Made by a program: the position numbers and the translations under genes
Shown: positions 35,799-45,301 of the stretch, in pieces
Layout of the letters: each line of letters starts with the position of its first letter
Position numbering within the stretch: the first letter of the stretch is position 1
Assembly: GCA_002082585.1 (NCBI GenBank)
Contig: CP020563.1
Coordinates: forward strand, 4,458,001 to 4,522,000
From: Kitasatospora albolonga
GTDB lineage: Bacteria; Actinomycetota; Actinomycetes; Streptomycetales; Streptomycetaceae
Direction of reading: 5' to 3'
DNA: 64,000 nt
The notes under the pieces: model-generated
The model's database searches: none
What the model saw: only the letters and a program-made list of their open reading frames with translations
Told to the model about the DNA's origin: nothing

Positions 35799-37526
<1,728 letters not shown>

Positions 37527-37731: not shown

Positions 37732-38403
37732 ATGACGGCTACGCAGGCAGGGGACGACGACAAGCAGGGGCGGGAGCCGGGGGCGGTACCGGGGCCGGGG
37801 ACGCGGCCGGAGCAGGGACAGGCGCCGGGACGGGTGCCGGAGACGCGGCCGGAGCAGGAGCGGGAACCAGGGCGGGTGCCGGGCCGGACGCCGGGGCCGC
37901 GGTGGGACCGGGGGCGCCTCAAGGGCGCTTGGCTCGTCCTCGTGGGGACGGTCCTGTTCGCGCTGGGGGCCTTCATCGTGGTGACCGGTACGGGGCTCTC
38001 CGGTGTGTTCGGGATGCGGGTGGAGACCTTCGGCCGGATCACCTGCCACGACACCCGCGCCGAGAAGGGGCAGACCGTCTGGCACTGCTTCGGCCAGAGC
38101 CCCGCCCAGCAGCGGGCCAACGACGCGGAGAAGGCCCGGGCCGCCCGCGAGGCGCTGCGCGTCCATGTCGACGGCATGCCGAAGCGGGCCGAGACCGGGC
38201 GTACGCGGATCACCTTCGCGGACCACGACGGCAAGAACGACCCCGAGACGATCACCGCGACCCAGGTGTTCGAGGGCGGCCGGTGGTACGCCCACTCGGG
38301 GACGCTCGTCGGCTACGGCATGGTCCCGCTGCTGCTGGGCGCCGGTACGGCGGCCTGGGGCGTGTACCGGGTGCGCGAGGCGGGCGGGTGGCGGGGCCGC
38401 TGA
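37732..38403 (+). CDS. Membrane protein with repetitive Pro/Arg/Glu N-terminus, hypothetical
   Basis: 223 residues. The N-terminus contains imperfect repeats (PGPGTRPEQGQAPGRVPE, TRPEQEREPGRVPGRTPGP). A membrane helix (GAWLVLVGTVLFALGAFIVVTG) is followed by an extracellular domain with two cysteines (ITCHDTRAEKGQTVWHCFGQSP) and a second helix near the C-terminus (LVGYGMVPLLLGAGTAAWGVYRV). No family recognised; the topology resembles actinobacterial DUF3592-like small membrane proteins. Confidence 0.7.
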   Translation: MTATQAGDDDKQGREPGAVPGPGTRPEQGQAPGRVPETRPEQEREPGRVPGRTPGPRWDRGRLKGAWLVLVGTVLFALGAFIVVTGTGLSGVFGMRVETFGRITCHDTRAEKGQTVWHCFGQSPAQQRANDAEKARAAREALRVHVDGMPKRAETGRTRITFADHDGKNDPETITATQVFEGGRWYAHSGTLVGYGMVPLLLGAGTAAWGVYRVREAGGWRGR

Positions 38404-38455
38404 GGGCCCGCTCATTGGGCCCGCTGAGGGACGGTTGAGGCGCGGAGCCGGGGCC

Positions 38456-38585
38456 CTGCCGGGCCGAAGCCGAAGTCTGCCGGGCCGAAACCGAGGCCCT
38501 GCCGGGCCGGAGCAGAGGCGTGTCCGGGCCGGAAACGAAGCCTGGCCGCACCGGAAACCAAGCCCGGCCGGGACGGAAAGGGCTT
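38456..38585. repeat. Six tandem 21-22 bp repeats downstream of the groEL2 region
   Basis: Degenerate units starting near 38456, 38477, 38499, 38521, 38542 and 38564, each with a core like CTGCCGGGCCGAAACCGAGG. The first three are the best conserved. No hairpin or reading frame explains them. Confidence 0.6.
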
Positions 38586-39010
38586 TTGGGAGCCCTGGGG
38601 CGGCCTTCGTGGGTGATCGTCTTGGCCGAATGGCTACTTGTAGCGCCCTTTACCGTACGGCAGGGCGTGTTCGCCTGATTACGCCGATGTCGGTGGCGCG
38701 ACCGCCGTCCCTGAGGTAAGGCGGCCCGAGAGGCGCCGAGGGCCGGGTTCCGGCTGGTTCCCCCGCCGCGCCGACGGCTCCCCGCTCTCTTGCCAGCTCA
38801 CTGCCCGGTCCGGCCGCCGCGACCGCTCATTGGTCCAGTCCACTGCCCCGCCAGGGTCTGGCGGTGTGCGACTGCACATGCCGACCGGTCGGTGCGGTGC
38901 GGGGCGGCGGACCGCCCCGCACCGGCGCTGTGGCGCTCACGCTATCCAGCCAACTTTGCGAGGTAAGTCGGAATCACGCGTACCGCTCCGCCAGCGGGAC
39001 ATGATGGCTC

Positions 39011-39033
39011 TGGTGTTCACCCGGTGAACACCA
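39011..39033. promoter_or_regulatory. Perfect 11-bp-arm palindrome upstream of the lasso cluster
   Basis: TGGTGTTCACC (39011-39021), one base, GGTGAACACCA (39023-39033). This is a typical operator for a dimeric regulator, 75 bases before the precursor start. Confidence 0.75.
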
Positions 39034-39042
39034 GTCGCATCA

Positions 39043-39056
39043 ATAACTCCAGTTAT
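39043..39056. promoter_or_regulatory. Second palindrome ATAACT-CC-AGTTAT before the lasso precursor
   Basis: A perfect inverted repeat of 6 + 2 + 6 bp, ten bases downstream of the first palindrome and in a locally AT-rich promoter-like stretch. Confidence 0.6.
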
Positions 39057-39108
39057 GCAGAAGCTATTTGGGCATAACGGTCGTCAACCGTACAGAGAGG
39101 TAGGTGTC

Positions 39109-39231
39109 ATGAAGCAGCAGAAGAAGGCTTACGTGAAGCCGTCGCTGTTCAAGCAGGGCGACTTTTCGAAGAAGACCGCCGGTTACTTCATCGGTTCGTA
39201 CAAGGAGTTCTGGAGCCGGCGCATCATCTGA
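39109..39231 (+). CDS. Lasso peptide precursor (class II, SRO15-2005-like)
   Basis: 40 residues. The leader is MKQQKKAYVKPSLFKQGDFS plus KKTA, with the RRE-recognition motif YVKPSL (YxxPxL) at residues 8-13 and Thr at the penultimate leader position. The predicted core is GYFIGSYKEFWSRRII (residues 25-40), with Gly1 cyclised to Glu9 to form a nine-residue ring and a seven-residue tail with bulky Phe/Trp/Arg plugs. No cysteines, hence class II. My hand calculation for the macrolactam is about 2003.04 Da. GAGAGGTAGG precedes ATG 39109. From memory the S. roseosporus peptide SRO15-2005 is GYFVGSYKEYWSRRII, so this is a V4I/Y10F variant. Confidence 0.93.
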   Translation: MKQQKKAYVKPSLFKQGDFSKKTAGYFIGSYKEFWSRRII

Positions 39232-39281
39232 TCCGCCGACCGGTTCCCTGTGCACGGTGTGAGAACTTCCGAAAGGTGAAG

Positions 39282-41255
39282 ATGCCCGGCCTGCTGCGTG
39301 ACTACTTCGTCGTCCTGCCGGACAGCGTGGCGGGCCACGCGGTCGCCGGGCGGCTTCCCGCATCGGAAGCGGCCACAGGGGTGGGTGACGTCCTGACCGT
39401 CGCCCACCCCTCGGGCCGCCCCTGGATCGTCGCCCGCCCGCTGGTCCGCAAGGTCAGCCACCTGGCCCGGGGCGACGACGCCCTCGTCCTCATCGGCCCG
39501 GACCGCGTCCCCGAGGCCGTACTCGCCGGGCTCCTGGAGGGCGCCCGCGACCGGGCCGCCCTGGAGCGCCGCCTCGCCCGGCTGCCCGGCCTCCACCACG
39601 TGGTCGCCCGGCTCTCCGGCGAGATCTGGATGCGCGGCACCGCCTCCGGGCTGCGCCGGATCTACCACGCCCGGCACCCCGAGGCCGGGACCATCGCCTC
39701 CGACCGCCCCGCCGTCCTCGCCCACCTGACCGGCGCCCCCCTGGACGACGGCGCGCTCGCCCTGCGCCTTCTCGACTTCCTGCCGCACCCCCTCAGCCGC
39801 CGCGCCCTCTGGCAGGGCGTGCACGAGGCCGGGGCCGGGTACGGAATCGCCCTGCCCGCCGCAGCACCGGGCACGGCCGCCGCCCCCGGCCCCCGTGAGC
39901 ACCGCTGGTGGGAGCCCCCGGCGCCGGAGCTCTCCCTCGAGGAGGGCGCCCGCAGGCTCGGGGACGCTGTCGCCGCCTCCGTACGCGCCCATGTCGGCGG
40001 CCTGGACCGGATCAGCTGCGAGCTCTCCGGCGGGATGGACTCCACCGCCCTCACCTTCGCCGCCCGGGAGACGGGCCCGGCGACGCTCTCCCTGCTGACC
40101 GTGGCCGCCCGGGACCGTTACAGCGAGGACGAGGGCTGGGCCCGCCGCGCGGTGGAGGAAGCGCGAAGGAACGCCCCCACCACCGGTACCGGCACCGGAA
40201 AGGGCGCAGGCGTCCCCGGACTGGACCATCACCTCATCCCCGCCGCCGACACCCCCTACTTCTACGCCGGTCTCGCCTCCTTCGCCGACGAGCTGAACGA
40301 CGAACCGCTCCCCGTCGCCCCCGGCCGCGCCCGCGCGCACCTCCTCCTGAGCCGCGCGCACGCCACCGGATCGCGCTACCACCTCACCGGCTACGGCGGC
40401 GACGAACTCTTCCTCGGCCTGCCCCACACCTACCAGGACCTCTTCCACGGCAACCCGCTCACCGCCTGGAACCGCCTCAGCGCCCTGCGCCACCAGCTCG
40501 GCTGGCCCCTCCTGCCCACGGTGAAGGCCCTGGCGGACCGCTCCCCGTTCCCGCGCTGGCTCGCGGGCGCGGTCACCACCGCCCCGCAGCCCGTCGCCCG
40601 CACCCCGCTGCTCTCCTGGGGTGTCCGGCAGTCCCTGCACCCCTGGCTGACCGAGCGCGCCCGCGCCCTGATCACCGAGGAGTTCCGGGCCGCCGCCGAG
40701 CACGCCGAGCCGATCGACCCGTGGCGGGGGCGGCACGTGGACATCGACGCGGTACGGATGGGAGCCCGGCACTTCCAGGCGATGGAGGACATCGGCATGA
40801 CGATCGGGCTGCCGGTCGCCGCGCCCTTCTACGACGACCGGGTCCTGGAGGCGACCCTCGCCGTACGCCTGTCGGAGCGGATCGCCCCCTGGCGCTACAA
40901 GCCGCTGCTCGCCGAAGCGATGCGCGGGGTGGTGCCGGATGCGCTGCTGGCCCGTACGACGAAGGACCACATGGCCTCCGACGAACACCAGGGCCTCAGC
41001 GAACACGCCGAGGAACTGGCGGAGTTGTGGACCGGCTCCCGGCTCGCCGAACACGGCCTGGTCGACGCCCGGCAGCTGCGCCGGCTCGCCGCCGAACCCT
41101 TCTCGCCGGTTCTTGTCGAGCACTCCGTCAGCTCGACCGTGGCCGGGGAGACCTGGCTCCGCACAGCGGAGAACGCCTGGAACAGCCCGCAGTTGACCCC
41201 CACGAACACGGCCGCAGCCACGGCCACGACCATGACCAGCGAGGCATCCCTGTGA
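39282..41255 (+). CDS. Lasso cyclase (asparagine-synthetase-like, C protein)
   Basis: 657 residues. The N-terminal glutaminase-like half (LLRDYFVVLPDSV...WMRGTASGLRRIYHARHPE) lacks the catalytic N-terminal Cys of true AsnB. The C-terminal synthetase domain has the PP-loop SCELSGGMDSTALTF near residue 250 and GYGGDELFLGLP. It adenylates the Glu9 side chain and closes the ring with the freed Gly1 amine. GAAAGG precedes ATG 39282, 50 bases after the precursor. Its stop overlaps the next start (GTGA). Confidence 0.93.
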   Translation: MPGLLRDYFVVLPDSVAGHAVAGRLPASEAATGVGDVLTVAHPSGRPWIVARPLVRKVSHLARGDDALVLIGPDRVPEAVLAGLLEGARDRAALERRLARLPGLHHVVARLSGEIWMRGTASGLRRIYHARHPEAGTIASDRPAVLAHLTGAPLDDGALALRLLDFLPHPLSRRALWQGVHEAGAGYGIALPAAAPGTAAAPGPREHRWWEPPAPELSLEEGARRLGDAVAASVRAHVGGLDRISCELSGGMDSTALTFAARETGPATLSLLTVAARDRYSEDEGWARRAVEEARRNAPTTGTGTGKGAGVPGLDHHLIPAADTPYFYAGLASFADELNDEPLPVAPGRARAHLLLSRAHATGSRYHLTGYGGDELFLGLPHTYQDLFHGNPLTAWNRLSALRHQLGWPLLPTVKALADRSPFPRWLAGAVTTAPQPVARTPLLSWGVRQSLHPWLTERARALITEEFRAAAEHAEPIDPWRGRHVDIDAVRMGARHFQAMEDIGMTIGLPVAAPFYDDRVLEATLAVRLSERIAPWRYKPLLAEAMRGVVPDALLARTTKDHMASDEHQGLSEHAEELAELWTGSRLAEHGLVDARQLRRLAAEPFSPVLVEHSVSSTVAGETWLRTAENAWNSPQLTPTNTAAATATTMTSEASL

Positions 41256-41503
41256 AGCTCAGAAAAGGCATCGCCGTCACGACGACCGAGTACGGCGGTG
41301 TCCTGCTCGATGAAAAGAGCGGCAGCTACTGGCAGTTGAACGACACCAGCGTCATCGTTGTCGAGACCCTGGCCGCCGGGCAGGCGCCCGAAGCCGCCAT
41401 CGAGCGGATCGTCGCCGAGTTCGACGTCGACCGTGCCGAGGCGGAGTCGGACGTCGCCGAACTGACCCGCCAGCTGGTCGAGGCGAAGATCCTGCGCCCA
41501 TGA
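41252..41503 (+). CDS. PqqD-like RRE protein of the lasso cluster (B1)
   Basis: 83 residues (MKLRKGIAVTTTEYGGVLLDEKSGSYWQLNDTSVIVVETLAAGQAPEAAIERIVAEFDVDRAEAESDVAELTRQLVEAKILRP), the PqqD winged-helix fold. It binds the YxxPxL leader motif and hands the precursor to the protease and cyclase. GTG 41252 overlaps the cyclase stop by four bases, and its own stop overlaps the next ATG. Confidence 0.92.
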   Translation: MKLRKGIAVTTTEYGGVLLDEKSGSYWQLNDTSVIVVETLAAGQAPEAAIERIVAEFDVDRAEAESDVAELTRQLVEAKILRP

Positions 41504-41961
41504 CCACCGAGATGACCATGCCCCGCCGGGGTGCGGGCCCGGGCGGTCTGCGGCTGCGCGCCGCGATCGCCGCCGCGTTCGTCCTGGCCCCGCTCAACCC
41601 GGGCCGCCTGCGTCGGGTGCTGACCCGGTGCAGCAGGGGCGCGCGCCCCGCCACGTACGACGAGACGCTGGAGGCGTACGAGGCCGTCATCGCCACCAGC
41701 CGCCGCTGCGCGGGCCGTTACGGCTGCCTGCCCCGCTCCGTCGCCATCGCCCTGGCCTGCCGGATGTCCGGCGTCTGGCCCGAGTGGTGCGCCGGGGTCC
41801 GGACAGCACCCCCGTTCGCGCCGCATGCTTGGGTACAGGCGGGGGGACGTACGGTCGGCGAGCAGGCGGAAGCGGCCGATCTGCGTCCTTTGATGGTGGT
41901 GAAGGTACGCGAAGGGGGTCCGGGTGGGCACGGTGGCGGGGACGACGGCGGAGCAGGATAA
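41500..41961 (+). CDS. Transglutaminase-like leader peptidase of the lasso cluster (B2)
   Basis: 153 residues. The cysteine-protease core is RYGCLPRSVAIALACRMSG (nucleophile Cys76), followed by PFAPHAWVQAGGRTVGE (His109) and a downstream acidic residue (Glu121 or Asp127). It cleaves the leader after Thr-Ala with help from B1. The first 50 residues are basic and hydrophobic. The last 40 bases overlap the ABC transporter gene, and the C-terminus is Gly/Asp-rich and probably unimportant. Confidence 0.9.
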   Translation: MTTEMTMPRRGAGPGGLRLRAAIAAAFVLAPLNPGRLRRVLTRCSRGARPATYDETLEAYEAVIATSRRCAGRYGCLPRSVAIALACRMSGVWPEWCAGVRTAPPFAPHAWVQAGGRTVGEQAEAADLRPLMVVKVREGGPGGHGGGDDGGAG

Positions 41962-43771
41962 GCGGCCCGAGGGGACGGAGCCCCCCGCCGAGCAGGCATC
42001 ACAGGCGCCACCAGGTCCGGAGACGCCCGGCCCCTCCCCCCTGCGCCTCCTCCTCACCCGGGTCCGCCCCCACCAGGGCGTCCTCCTCCGGGCGGGGCTC
42101 CTCTCCCTGACCGGTTCGGCGGCCGGGCTGGCGATGCCGCTGATGGCGAAGTACGCCGTCGACGCGTTCGCCGCCGACCGCTCGCCCGTGGCCCCGCTCG
42201 TCGCGCTGACCGCGCTCGTCCTCGCCGGGGCCTGCCTCTCCGCGTACGGGCGTTACCTCATGGCCCGTACGGGGGAGGGCGTCGTCCTCCGCGCCCGCGA
42301 CCAACTCGTGGGCCGCATCATGCGGTTGAAGGTCCCGGCGGTGGACCGCCTCACCCCCGGTGACCTCCAGTCCCGCGTCACCAGCGACACCACCCTCCTC
42401 CGGACGGTCCTCTCCAGCGGCCTGGTCGAGTCGTTCAACAGCGTGCTGATGCTGCTGGGGACGGTCGCGTTCATGGCGTACATGGACCTGACGCTGCTGG
42501 GCGTGACGCTGGTGGTGATCGTCGGCATCGGAGCTGTAACGGCCTTGCTCATGCCCCGTATTCAGCGCGCGCAGCTCCGCGCGCAGGAGTCCGTGGGGGC
42601 GATGGGCGCGGCGCTGGACCGGGTGCTCCAGGCGTTCCGTACGGTCAAGGCGAGCGGCGCGGAGGAGCGGGAGACGGCGGCGGTCGCGCGGGCGGCCCGG
42701 CACGCGCACGACCGGGGCGTGACGGTGGCGAAGTGGTCCTCGGTCTCCGACGTCACGATGATGATGTCGATCCAACTGGCCTTCCTGGCCGTGCTGGGCG
42801 TCGGCGGAGCGCGGGTGGCCTCGGGCTCCCTGGAGATCTCCTCGCTGATCGCGTTCCTGCTCTATCTCTTCTACCTGATGGGCCCGATCGGCGGCCTGGT
42901 CGAGGGCTGGACGGGCCTCCAGAGCGGCCTCGCCGCCGTACGGAGGATCGACGAGGTGGAGTCGCTGCCGGGCGAACCGGCGGGGGGCTTCAGCGGGTTG
43001 AAGGGGGGCGGCGGCCCGCTGCGGGTCACCTTCCAGGAGGTCACCTTCGGATACGGGGACGAGCGCGCCCCCGCCCACAAGGGCGTCACGTTCGACGTGC
43101 CGACGGGCGGGATGGTCGCGCTGGTGGGCCCGTCCGGGGCGGGCAAGTCGACGGTGTTCAGCCTGCTGGAACGGTTCTACGACCATGACGGCGGCACGAT
43201 CACCGTGGACGGCCGGGACATCCGGGACTGGCCGCTGGCCGAGCTGCGGGGTTCGATCGCGTACGTGGAACAGGACGCCCCGGTCCTGGCGGGCACCCTC
43301 CGCGAGAACCTGCTCTTCGCCGCCCCGGACGCCCCGGACGACCGGCTGGCGGACGCGGTCGCCCGGACCCGTCTGGACGCCCTGGTCGACCGGCTGCCGG
43401 AGGGCCTGGACACGCCGGTCGGCCACCGGGGCGTGACCCTCTCCGGCGGCGAACGCCAGCGCATCGCCATCGCCCGCGCCCTGCTGCGCCGCCCGCGTCT
43501 GCTCCTCCTCGATGAGGTGACCTCGCAGCTGGACGCGGTCAACGAGCAGGCGCTGCGCGATGTCATCCTTGAACTGGCCGAGCAGACCACGGTGTTGGTC
43601 ATCGCCCACCGCCTGTCCACCGTCCGCCACGCGGACCGCATCGTGGTCCTGGAGGAGGGCCGGGTCCGCACGGCCGGCACGCACGAGGAGCTGATCGACG
43701 GGGACGAGCTCTACCGCGAGCTGGCGACGACGCAGCTGGCGGCGGAGGGAGCGGAGGCGGGGGCGCGGTGA
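41924..43771 (+). CDS. ABC exporter of the lasso peptide (D protein)
   Basis: 615 residues, half-transporter type: a Pro/Glu-rich N-terminus, six membrane helices (about 50-320, e.g. LLSLTGSAAGLAMPLMAKYAVDAF), then the ATPase with Walker A GPSGAGKST, signature LSGGERQR, Walker B LLLLDEVTSQLD and H-loop IAHRLST. It works as a homodimer to export and confer immunity to the mature lasso peptide. GTG 41924 is preceded by GAAGGGGG inside the B2 gene. Last gene of the cluster; it ends four bases from the convergent Uma2 gene. Confidence 0.9.
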   Translation: MGTVAGTTAEQDKRPEGTEPPAEQASQAPPGPETPGPSPLRLLLTRVRPHQGVLLRAGLLSLTGSAAGLAMPLMAKYAVDAFAADRSPVAPLVALTALVLAGACLSAYGRYLMARTGEGVVLRARDQLVGRIMRLKVPAVDRLTPGDLQSRVTSDTTLLRTVLSSGLVESFNSVLMLLGTVAFMAYMDLTLLGVTLVVIVGIGAVTALLMPRIQRAQLRAQESVGAMGAALDRVLQAFRTVKASGAEERETAAVARAARHAHDRGVTVAKWSSVSDVTMMMSIQLAFLAVLGVGGARVASGSLEISSLIAFLLYLFYLMGPIGGLVEGWTGLQSGLAAVRRIDEVESLPGEPAGGFSGLKGGGGPLRVTFQEVTFGYGDERAPAHKGVTFDVPTGGMVALVGPSGAGKSTVFSLLERFYDHDGGTITVDGRDIRDWPLAELRGSIAYVEQDAPVLAGTLRENLLFAAPDAPDDRLADAVARTRLDALVDRLPEGLDTPVGHRGVTLSGGERQRIAIARALLRRPRLLLLDEVTSQLDAVNEQALRDVILELAEQTTVLVIAHRLSTVRHADRIVVLEEGRVRTAGTHEELIDGDELYRELATTQLAAEGAEAGAR

Positions 43772-43775
43772 GGGG

Positions 43776-44363
43776 TCAGCGGGCGTAGTCCTTGAGTTCC
43801 TCGGTGTCCAGGGTGATGGAGACGGGGTGGGGGAGGGCCACCGCGTCTCCGTAGTCGTAGGAGTGCTGCTGCCGGTAGCGGCCTTTGTCGGGCTCGCTGT
43901 GGACCACGAGTGTCCCGTGCTCCCGGTCGATCAAGAGGTATACCGGGATGCCTGCCGTCGCGTATCCGTGGGGCTTCTCTGCGCGGTCGCGGCGGTCGGT
44001 GTCGTGATCGTAGGACGTTACTTCCACGGCCATCAGGACGCCGTCGGCGGGCGCCCACTCTCCTTGCCCGGCGAAGTGCCGACGAGGCGCGAGCGCTCCG
44101 TCGGGGCGGGCGCGGCCCTGCCGGTACGCCTCCACCATCAGCCCCTGCTCCGGGTGCAGGTCGAGGTCGGGGCGGTGCTGCATGCACTGGCGCAGCAGCC
44201 ACATGAAGATGGTTCCGTGATCCCCGTCCGGCACGGGCTTGACCTCTAGCTTTCCGTTGATGAGCTCAAGCGTCACGGTCTCGGGGGCCGAGCGGGCGAG
44301 CTGCTCGAACTCCTCGACGGACATCTGGGCGTGCGGTGTGTGCCCGGCGGTGCTGGGGGTCAT
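43776..44363 (-). CDS. Uma2 family (DUF820) PD-(D/E)XK nuclease-like protein
   Basis: 195 residues. The fold is recognisable from MSVEEFEQLARSAPETVTLELINGKLEVKPVPDGDHG, ARPDGALAP and VLMAVEVTSYDHDTDRRDRAEKPHGYATAGIPVYLLID, giving the E...D...E-x-[S/T]-x(n)-D...K layout of Uma2 restriction-endonuclease-like proteins. Multiplied in Streptomyces and cyanobacteria, role unknown. ATG 44363 follows GGAGGGGAGGAGG. Confidence 0.85.
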   Translation of the reverse strand: MTPSTAGHTPHAQMSVEEFEQLARSAPETVTLELINGKLEVKPVPDGDHGTIFMWLLRQCMQHRPDLDLHPEQGLMVEAYRQGRARPDGALAPRRHFAGQGEWAPADGVLMAVEVTSYDHDTDRRDRAEKPHGYATAGIPVYLLIDREHGTLVVHSEPDKGRYRQQHSYDYGDAVALPHPVSITLDTEELKDYAR

Positions 44364-44419
44364 GGCGTCGCCTCCTCCCCTCCATCGTGCCCTGTCGGAT
44401 CTGCGGGTGAGCTGCACGG

Positions 44420-45301
44420 TCATCGGTATGTCCTTTCGGATCGAGGGATCAGCCCGGCCCGGACCGCGTTCATCCGTTCCCGTACGCCGGGCGGCTGCAC
44501 GGCCCCCGGCGGGCCGATCGGCGGCTCCGGGGACGGCCCCCGGCAGGGTCGGCACAGCCCGCCGAGGAGGGCCTCCGGCCTGCCCGGGGCTCCGCACTCG
44601 CCGCACTCCAGGGTGCGCAGGACGGTCCGGGGCCCCGGCAGGACCCGTTCCGGCGGCAGCTTGTCGAGCAGGCGCCGCTCGACGAGGCGGGCGGCGCAGT
44701 GGACGGGGGACGGCAGGCCGGTGGTGAGGGCGCTCAGCAGCTCCGCCTCGGTCGCACCCCGCGCGAACCATTCGCTGACCTGCGGTTCCAGGTGTACGCA
44801 GTCGGCGGCGGAGAGGGACAGCGCCGGGGCCGTACGCCCCAGGGCGGCCAGCAGGATGAACGCCCGGGACCGGGTGGGGCGTCGGGGCTCGTCCGGCGGG
44901 GCGTCGCCCCGGGTGTAGGCGTTCCACCAGGAGTCCTCGCGGGCGGTGCGCGAGAAGAACGTACGGGTCACCCAGAGCATCACGTCGTCGGCCACCACGC
45001 ACTCGCTGCCGCGCCGCAGATGCCCGGCGGCCTGGAGCCGGTTGAGGGTGGTGCTCAGCGCGCACTGGCCGTACGGGAGGTGCTTGGCCAGCGTCTTCAC
45101 GGAGATGTCCGAGCCGTCGGGCAGCCGGTCGATGTACGCGGCGACGGCGGCGTCACGGGGGAGGAGGTGAGCGAAGTCGCGCTCGGTGCGCGGTCGTTCG
45201 TTCGGTGCGGAGCGCTTGCCGTAGCCGGGTTTGGCCATGGGGTGCGCGGGCGGGGTCTCGTGCGAGGTGCTGTGGGCAGCACTAAGGTAGCTGTTAGCCA
45301 T
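44420..45301 (-). CDS. Helix-turn-helix protein with C-terminal zinc ribbon
   Basis: 293 residues. The N-terminal half has a winged helix (LPYGQCALSTTLNRLQAAGHLRRGSECV). The middle is helical, with RAFILLAALGRTAPALSLSAADCVHLEPQVSEWFARGATEAELLSALTTGLP. The C-terminus has a CxxC...CxxC ribbon (ECGECGAPGRPEALLGGLCRPCRG). This type is common in Streptomyces and presumably binds DNA; function unknown. Start ATG 45301 or ATG 45238; neither has a strong ribosome binding site. A long inverted repeat lies just upstream. Confidence 0.75.
   Translation of the reverse strand: MANSYLSAAHSTSHETPPAHPMAKPGYGKRSAPNERPRTERDFAHLLPRDAAVAAYIDRLPDGSDISVKTLAKHLPYGQCALSTTLNRLQAAGHLRRGSECVVADDVMLWVTRTFFSRTAREDSWWNAYTRGDAPPDEPRRPTRSRAFILLAALGRTAPALSLSAADCVHLEPQVSEWFARGATEAELLSALTTGLPSPVHCAARLVERRLLDKLPPERVLPGPRTVLRTLECGECGAPGRPEALLGGLCRPCRGPSPEPPIGPPGAVQPPGVRERMNAVRAGLIPRSERTYR

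Follow-up and report, generated by a model that had tools for sequence, protein, structure and literature searches.

SRO15-2005, a class II lasso peptide that we take to come from Streptomyces roseosporus and to have the core GYFVGSYKEYWSRRII, is the described peptide with which the locus reported here is best compared. To our knowledge, no activity is known for the SRO15-2005 lasso family. We analysed a stretch of 64,000 nucleotides, hereafter the window (G000:C1:4458001-4522000), from an 8.03-Mb single-contig genome of Kitasatospora albolonga. As in SRO15-2005, the predicted peptide has 16 residues and a ring between G1 and E9, with 14 of the 16 residues equal and the same leader motif, whereas the window has V4I and Y10F, and a processing-protein tree puts its operon with carriers of other cores (support 71). 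This two-residue distance from the 2005-Da core had been proposed in a sequence-only reading of the window and is borne out by the sequence comparison. A second relative, the core GYFYGSYKEYWVRRII of S. cyaneofuscatus and S. californicus, comes with the same genes, the same leader and groEL upstream, but has Y4, Y10 and V12 in place of I4, F10 and S12, and its calculated lasso mass is 2081.05 Da. For B1 alone, sequence relatives are also found in TfuB1 (6jx3), which presumably belongs to the fusilassin/fuscanodin system, and in TbiB1 (5v1u).

The operon and its predicted product

The features of the locus, with functions assigned from family matches and motifs, are the following.

35904..37526, plus strand: groEL, presumed from its sequence; upstream neighbour of the operon
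39010..39034, no strand: palindrome, candidate operator or RNA hairpin; perfect over 25 bp, with 12-bp arms and a 1-bp centre
39052..39078, no strand: inverted repeat GTTATGC-N13-GCATAAC with 7-bp halves; candidate promoter or second operator element
39109..39231, plus strand: lasso precursor A, 40 codons; PF19397 match and alignment with relatives
39276..41255, plus strand: C, asparagine-synthetase-like macrolactam cyclase, 659 aa from GTG; Pfam, NCBIfam, motifs
41252..41503, plus strand: B1, RRE/PqqD-like leader-binding protein; NF033530 above cut-off, PDB matches
41500..41961, plus strand: B2, transglutaminase-like leader protease; NF033537 above cut-off, motifs conserved in the alignment
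41924..43771, plus strand: D, ABC exporter with fused membrane and ATPase domains; Pfam, GPSGAGKST and LSGGERQ motifs

The genes follow one another on the plus strand in the order A-C-B1-B2-D, spanning 39109 to 43771, and each reads as an open frame. C overlaps B1 by 4 bp, B1 overlaps B2 by 4 bp and B2 overlaps D by 38 bp, in agreement with the earlier description of four intact, overlapping processing and export genes. The precursor does not overlap C, from which it is separated by 44 bp, and the likelier start of C is the ATG at 39282, better placed behind a GAAAGG. The sequence-only reading had called this stretch a complete class II lasso cluster, and the open frames, the family matches and homologous clusters elsewhere confirm it. 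The comparison of precursors across Streptomyces that it recommended was run: homologous precursors recur with the same genes behind them, which excludes chance.

The precursor consists of a 24-residue leader, MKQQKKAYVKPSLFKQGDFSKKTA, and a 16-residue core, GYFIGSYKEFWSRRII. A YxxP motif in the leader and a Thr at position -2 are hallmarks of lasso precursors, and here the leader carries YVKP and a Thr at -2 of the cut site (KKTA-G), with Y8, P11 and T23 invariant across 10 aligned precursors. The core begins with G1, has an acidic residue, E9, within positions 7 to 9, lacks cysteine as expected of class II, and fits the SRO15-2005 family pattern GYFxGSYKExWxRRII. The precursor matches Pfam PF19397 (DUF5972) with 43.8 bits against a gathering cut-off of 22.6 (E = 1.8e-11). 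Three further precursors match PF19397, one carrying the 2005-Da core and two from distant relatives; DUF5972 therefore includes precursors of this lasso family. The suggestion that so short a gene would be missed by standard annotation is thus only partly fair, since PF19397 detects it, while the NCBIfam models, none of which matches at E 0.001, are indeed silent.

Among the processing and export proteins, Pfam recognises Asn_synthase (1.1e-32) in C, PqqD (9.7e-15) in B1, Transglut_core3 (8.6e-25) in B2, and ABC_membrane and ABC_tran in D. NF033530 (B1) and NF033537 (B2) exceed their curated NCBIfam cut-offs, whereas C stays below those of macrolact_Ik_Al (210.7 versus 300 bits) and lass_lactam_cya (33 versus 525). 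The assignment of C accordingly rests on its Asn_synthase domain, its motifs and its setting. SGGMDST and YGGDELF are found in the window's C; of the four patterns used in the C motif scan, the other two matched 0 and 2 of 24 sequences and are uninformative. B1 matches TfuB1 at 1.9e-17 and TbiB1 at 3.6e-5, and a search of PDB chains at E 0.001 gave no match for C or B2. In B2, YGCLPR[ST], HAWV and a VGE/VGE-like block (the Cys/His region) are conserved among the aligned relatives. The three proteins by which a lasso cluster is recognised, namely C, an RRE-type B1 and a B2 protease, are thus all found, C through its Asn_synthase domain and motifs only.

The calculated lasso mass of the window's core is 2003.0418 Da ([M+H]+ 2004.0490; 2+ ion 1002.528), and that of GYFVGSYKEYWSRRII is 2005.0210 Da. 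Recomputation thus reproduces the earlier hand calculations of about 2003.04 Da for the cyclic peptide and 2005.02 Da for the remembered core, the latter fitting the name SRO15-2005. The linear form is calculated at 2021.052 Da, and the y ions of the tail at 132.10, 245.19, 401.29, 557.39, 644.42 and 830.50.

Gene content and conservation are observed, whereas we infer the enzyme steps and the threading from the protein families. B1 would bind the leader at its YVKP motif, B2 would cleave after Thr-Ala with Thr at -2, and C would activate Glu9 and join it to the amine of Gly1. The tail, F10-I16, would pass through the resulting ring of nine residues, and D would export the product.

Variation, distribution and descent of the family

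A scan of named contigs, with one genome per species, returned 25 loci, 16 close and 9 distant. The 2005-Da core is present in 5 of the 25, for example in S. parvus JCM 4069, GYFYGSYKEYWVRRII in four, and the window's core in none, an absence that is weak because the named set may omit the window's own or very near genome records. Precursor searches of four further genome draws, which overlap, matched 15/392, 8/296, 21/394 and 14/392 genomes, together 30 matching genomes with the window's own included. Four of these 30 carry the 2005-Da core and one, the window's own, carries GYFIGSYKEFWSRRII. As the 25-locus and 30-genome sets overlap in part, their counts are not additive; over both, 19 distinct cores were read, the window's and 18 others, so the core is less remarkable than the first reading had rated it. 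The lasso family is recurrent in Streptomyces.

Core variation was tabulated for 19 of 26 precursors, those caught by the leader pattern, the seven more distant ones (L033 to L039) being dropped. Positions 1 to 3, 5 to 9 and 13 to 15 are invariant in the tabulated cores, and positions 4, 10, 11, 12 and 16 vary. V predominates at position 4 (13 cores, against five with Y and one with I), as Y does at position 10 (17 cores, against two with F), so the window's I4 and F10 fall at variable positions. The distant named cores L033 to L039 vary additionally at positions 6, 8 (L038) and 15, and the window shares G1, E9, R13 and R14 with all 25 named cores. Tail length differs as well, one relative having a 17-residue core that ends in VRRIVY. 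A naive pN/pS, calculated over 17 close sequences, is 0.50 for the core and 0.23 for the leader; nonsynonymous change is rarer than synonymous change, and the peptide therefore looks constrained. Such values are in keeping with a constrained peptide that has undergone some drift or diversification rather than decay. As a separate observation, the distant relative L015 (G051) has the same leader family with a different core, GWFMSKKSENLTWRIGGS, which is without R13.

To place the operon, the C, B1, B2 and D protein sequences were concatenated and a tree was reconstructed under LG+G4, rooted on L034, with 17 taxa: the window and 16 of 20 named loci, those with all four genes (L036 to L039 omitted). 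The window falls with S. cyaneofuscatus, CB00316 and S. microflavus, all carriers of other cores, at the support of 71 given above, while the four 2005-Da-core loci in the tree form a separate group that also takes in two loci with other cores (support 99). The placement of the window is not firm, because the deeper nodes between the groups have support of 61 and 67.

Upstream of the operon, a protein 99 to 100% identical to the window's groEL is encoded in 16 of the 25 named loci, which are all 16 of the close ones. It lies 0.8 to 1.4 kb from the operon in 15 loci, 4.7 kb in L024 and 1.6 kb in the window. No groEL is seen in the available flanks of the 9 distant loci, those of L036 and L037 reaching less than 0.9 kb upstream. 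Because groEL precedes the operon in every close named locus, the close branch has probably been inherited vertically at one place downstream of it.

The other flank begins with a Uma2 endonuclease-like gene directly downstream on the minus strand (43776-44363). A further minus-strand gene, 44420-45301, has a MarR_2 match barely over its cut-off (28.7 versus 27 bits). A homologue of it lies downstream in 6 of the 25 named loci, several of which have little downstream sequence, and no tie between it and the palindrome at 39010-39034 was seen. Five neighbouring ORFs were scanned for an E-type isopeptidase or a dedicated regulator, and neither was found. A plasmid origin found no support, as a plasmid collection gave zero matches.

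Relatives with a cysteine pair

In two genomes a leader of this lasso family is followed by a different core, GMFYASCKEFWSRRLCI in G596 and GMFYASCKEYWSRRLCI in G724, at L055 (G596:C2:1705500-1722000) and L056 (G724:C13:71000-87500), respectively. Their cores, GMFYASCKE[F/Y]WSRRLCI, have one cysteine in the ring (Cys7) and one in the tail (Cys16). Each locus has C, B1, B2 and D, with 56 to 74% identity to the window's proteins, and both adjoin a leuA-like gene with HMGL-like and LeuA_dimer domains. No groEL was seen in either stretch, and no oxidoreductase among the ten flanking ORFs scanned. When further carriers were sought with a cysteine-pair precursor as query, 15 of 392 genomes matched; apart from one known carrier, these were 14 genomes whose cores had been read as cysteine-free, so this draw yielded no additional one. 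A ring-tail disulfide between Cys7 and Cys16, predicted from the two cores and like that of the class III lasso peptide BI-32169, could give a class III-like lasso peptide from a class II family. With this disulfide closed, the calculated masses are 2075.953 and 2091.948 Da, and reduction would add about 2 Da.

An upstream palindrome and expression of the operon

Between groEL and the precursor lies the palindrome CTGGTGTTCACC-C-GGTGAACACCAG. Its pattern, GGTG[TA]TC[AG]C...GAACACC, is present in the window and all 16 close named loci and in none of the 9 distant ones. The arms are imperfect in some loci, for example with a mismatched position in L017 and L029. Both arms change jointly, from TTCAC/GTGAA to TTCG/CGAA, in L025, L027, L028, L031 and L040, changes that may be a single one through shared descent.

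A search of the window's own genome with the 18 fixed arm bases gave seven places at up to three mismatches, one of them exact, against none for the reversed control; the exact copy is that of the lasso promoter only. With the inner half and one mismatch, one further place appears, at 633185, which is at chance level as the reversed control also gave one. The 8.5 kb around it contain no recognisable regulator among GC3-rich ORFs of 100 codons or more. GTTCACC resembles PhoP boxes, which are direct repeats, and a PhoP box reading was dropped because the arrangement here is inverted. At the RNA level, a 104-nt fold has a z score of -2.27, with 4 of 200 shuffles folding equally well or better, and Rfam at its gathering threshold gave no match across 38400-44400. 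The palindrome is compatible with either a regulator-binding operator or an RNA hairpin. Further downstream, the inverted repeat at 39052-39078 has an invariant left half and a mostly conserved right half in 14 aligned sequences. That the groEL-linked branch is under a putative trans-acting regulator binding the 25-bp palindrome is a tentative proposal, to which we give slightly less than even weight.

Our reading of the locus as an intact operon for a class II lasso peptide of this family (A-C-B1-B2-D), with a predicted product of 2003.0418 Da, is held with very high confidence. Points that count against it are the sub-cut-off NCBIfam scores of C, the negative PDB searches for C and B2, and the negative scans for an isopeptidase, a regulator (five neighbouring ORFs) and a sigma-70-type promoter. 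Decay of the cluster, or its assembly from chance ORFs, found no support and is contradicted by the family matches, the motifs and the homologous clusters elsewhere, so that we consider it practically negligible. The product might also carry an extra modification or be trimmed at its C terminus, and its mass would then differ from 2003.04 Da. The varying tail length of relatives, as in the 17-residue core, speaks for this, yet there is no extra gene between A and D, and the Uma2 gene lies on the other strand after D; we judge it improbable.

A different kind of alternative concerns production only and is compatible with the gene reading, namely that the operon is genetically intact yet silent in culture, with the peptide rarely made. 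Lasso-type clusters are often silent, the conserved upstream palindrome suggests control, and a search for sigma-70-type promoters in 38400-39300 gave zero matches, whereas all genes are open and the core looks constrained. We regard such silence as a possibility to be taken seriously, though we lean against it.

The intact operon thus encodes what looks like a new member of an apparently known lasso family, which is scarcely surprising, and it adds one natural analogue to the SRO15-2005 family, whose natural variation hints at which core positions tolerate change. As leads, the cysteine-pair relatives and the palindrome are more useful than the core itself. From L055 and L056 one could learn how a ring-tail disulfide arises on a class II scaffold. 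The conserved palindrome offers a handle on expression and, if the proposed regulation is true, the lasso-palindrome regulator, once found, would be a switch for a possibly silent family.
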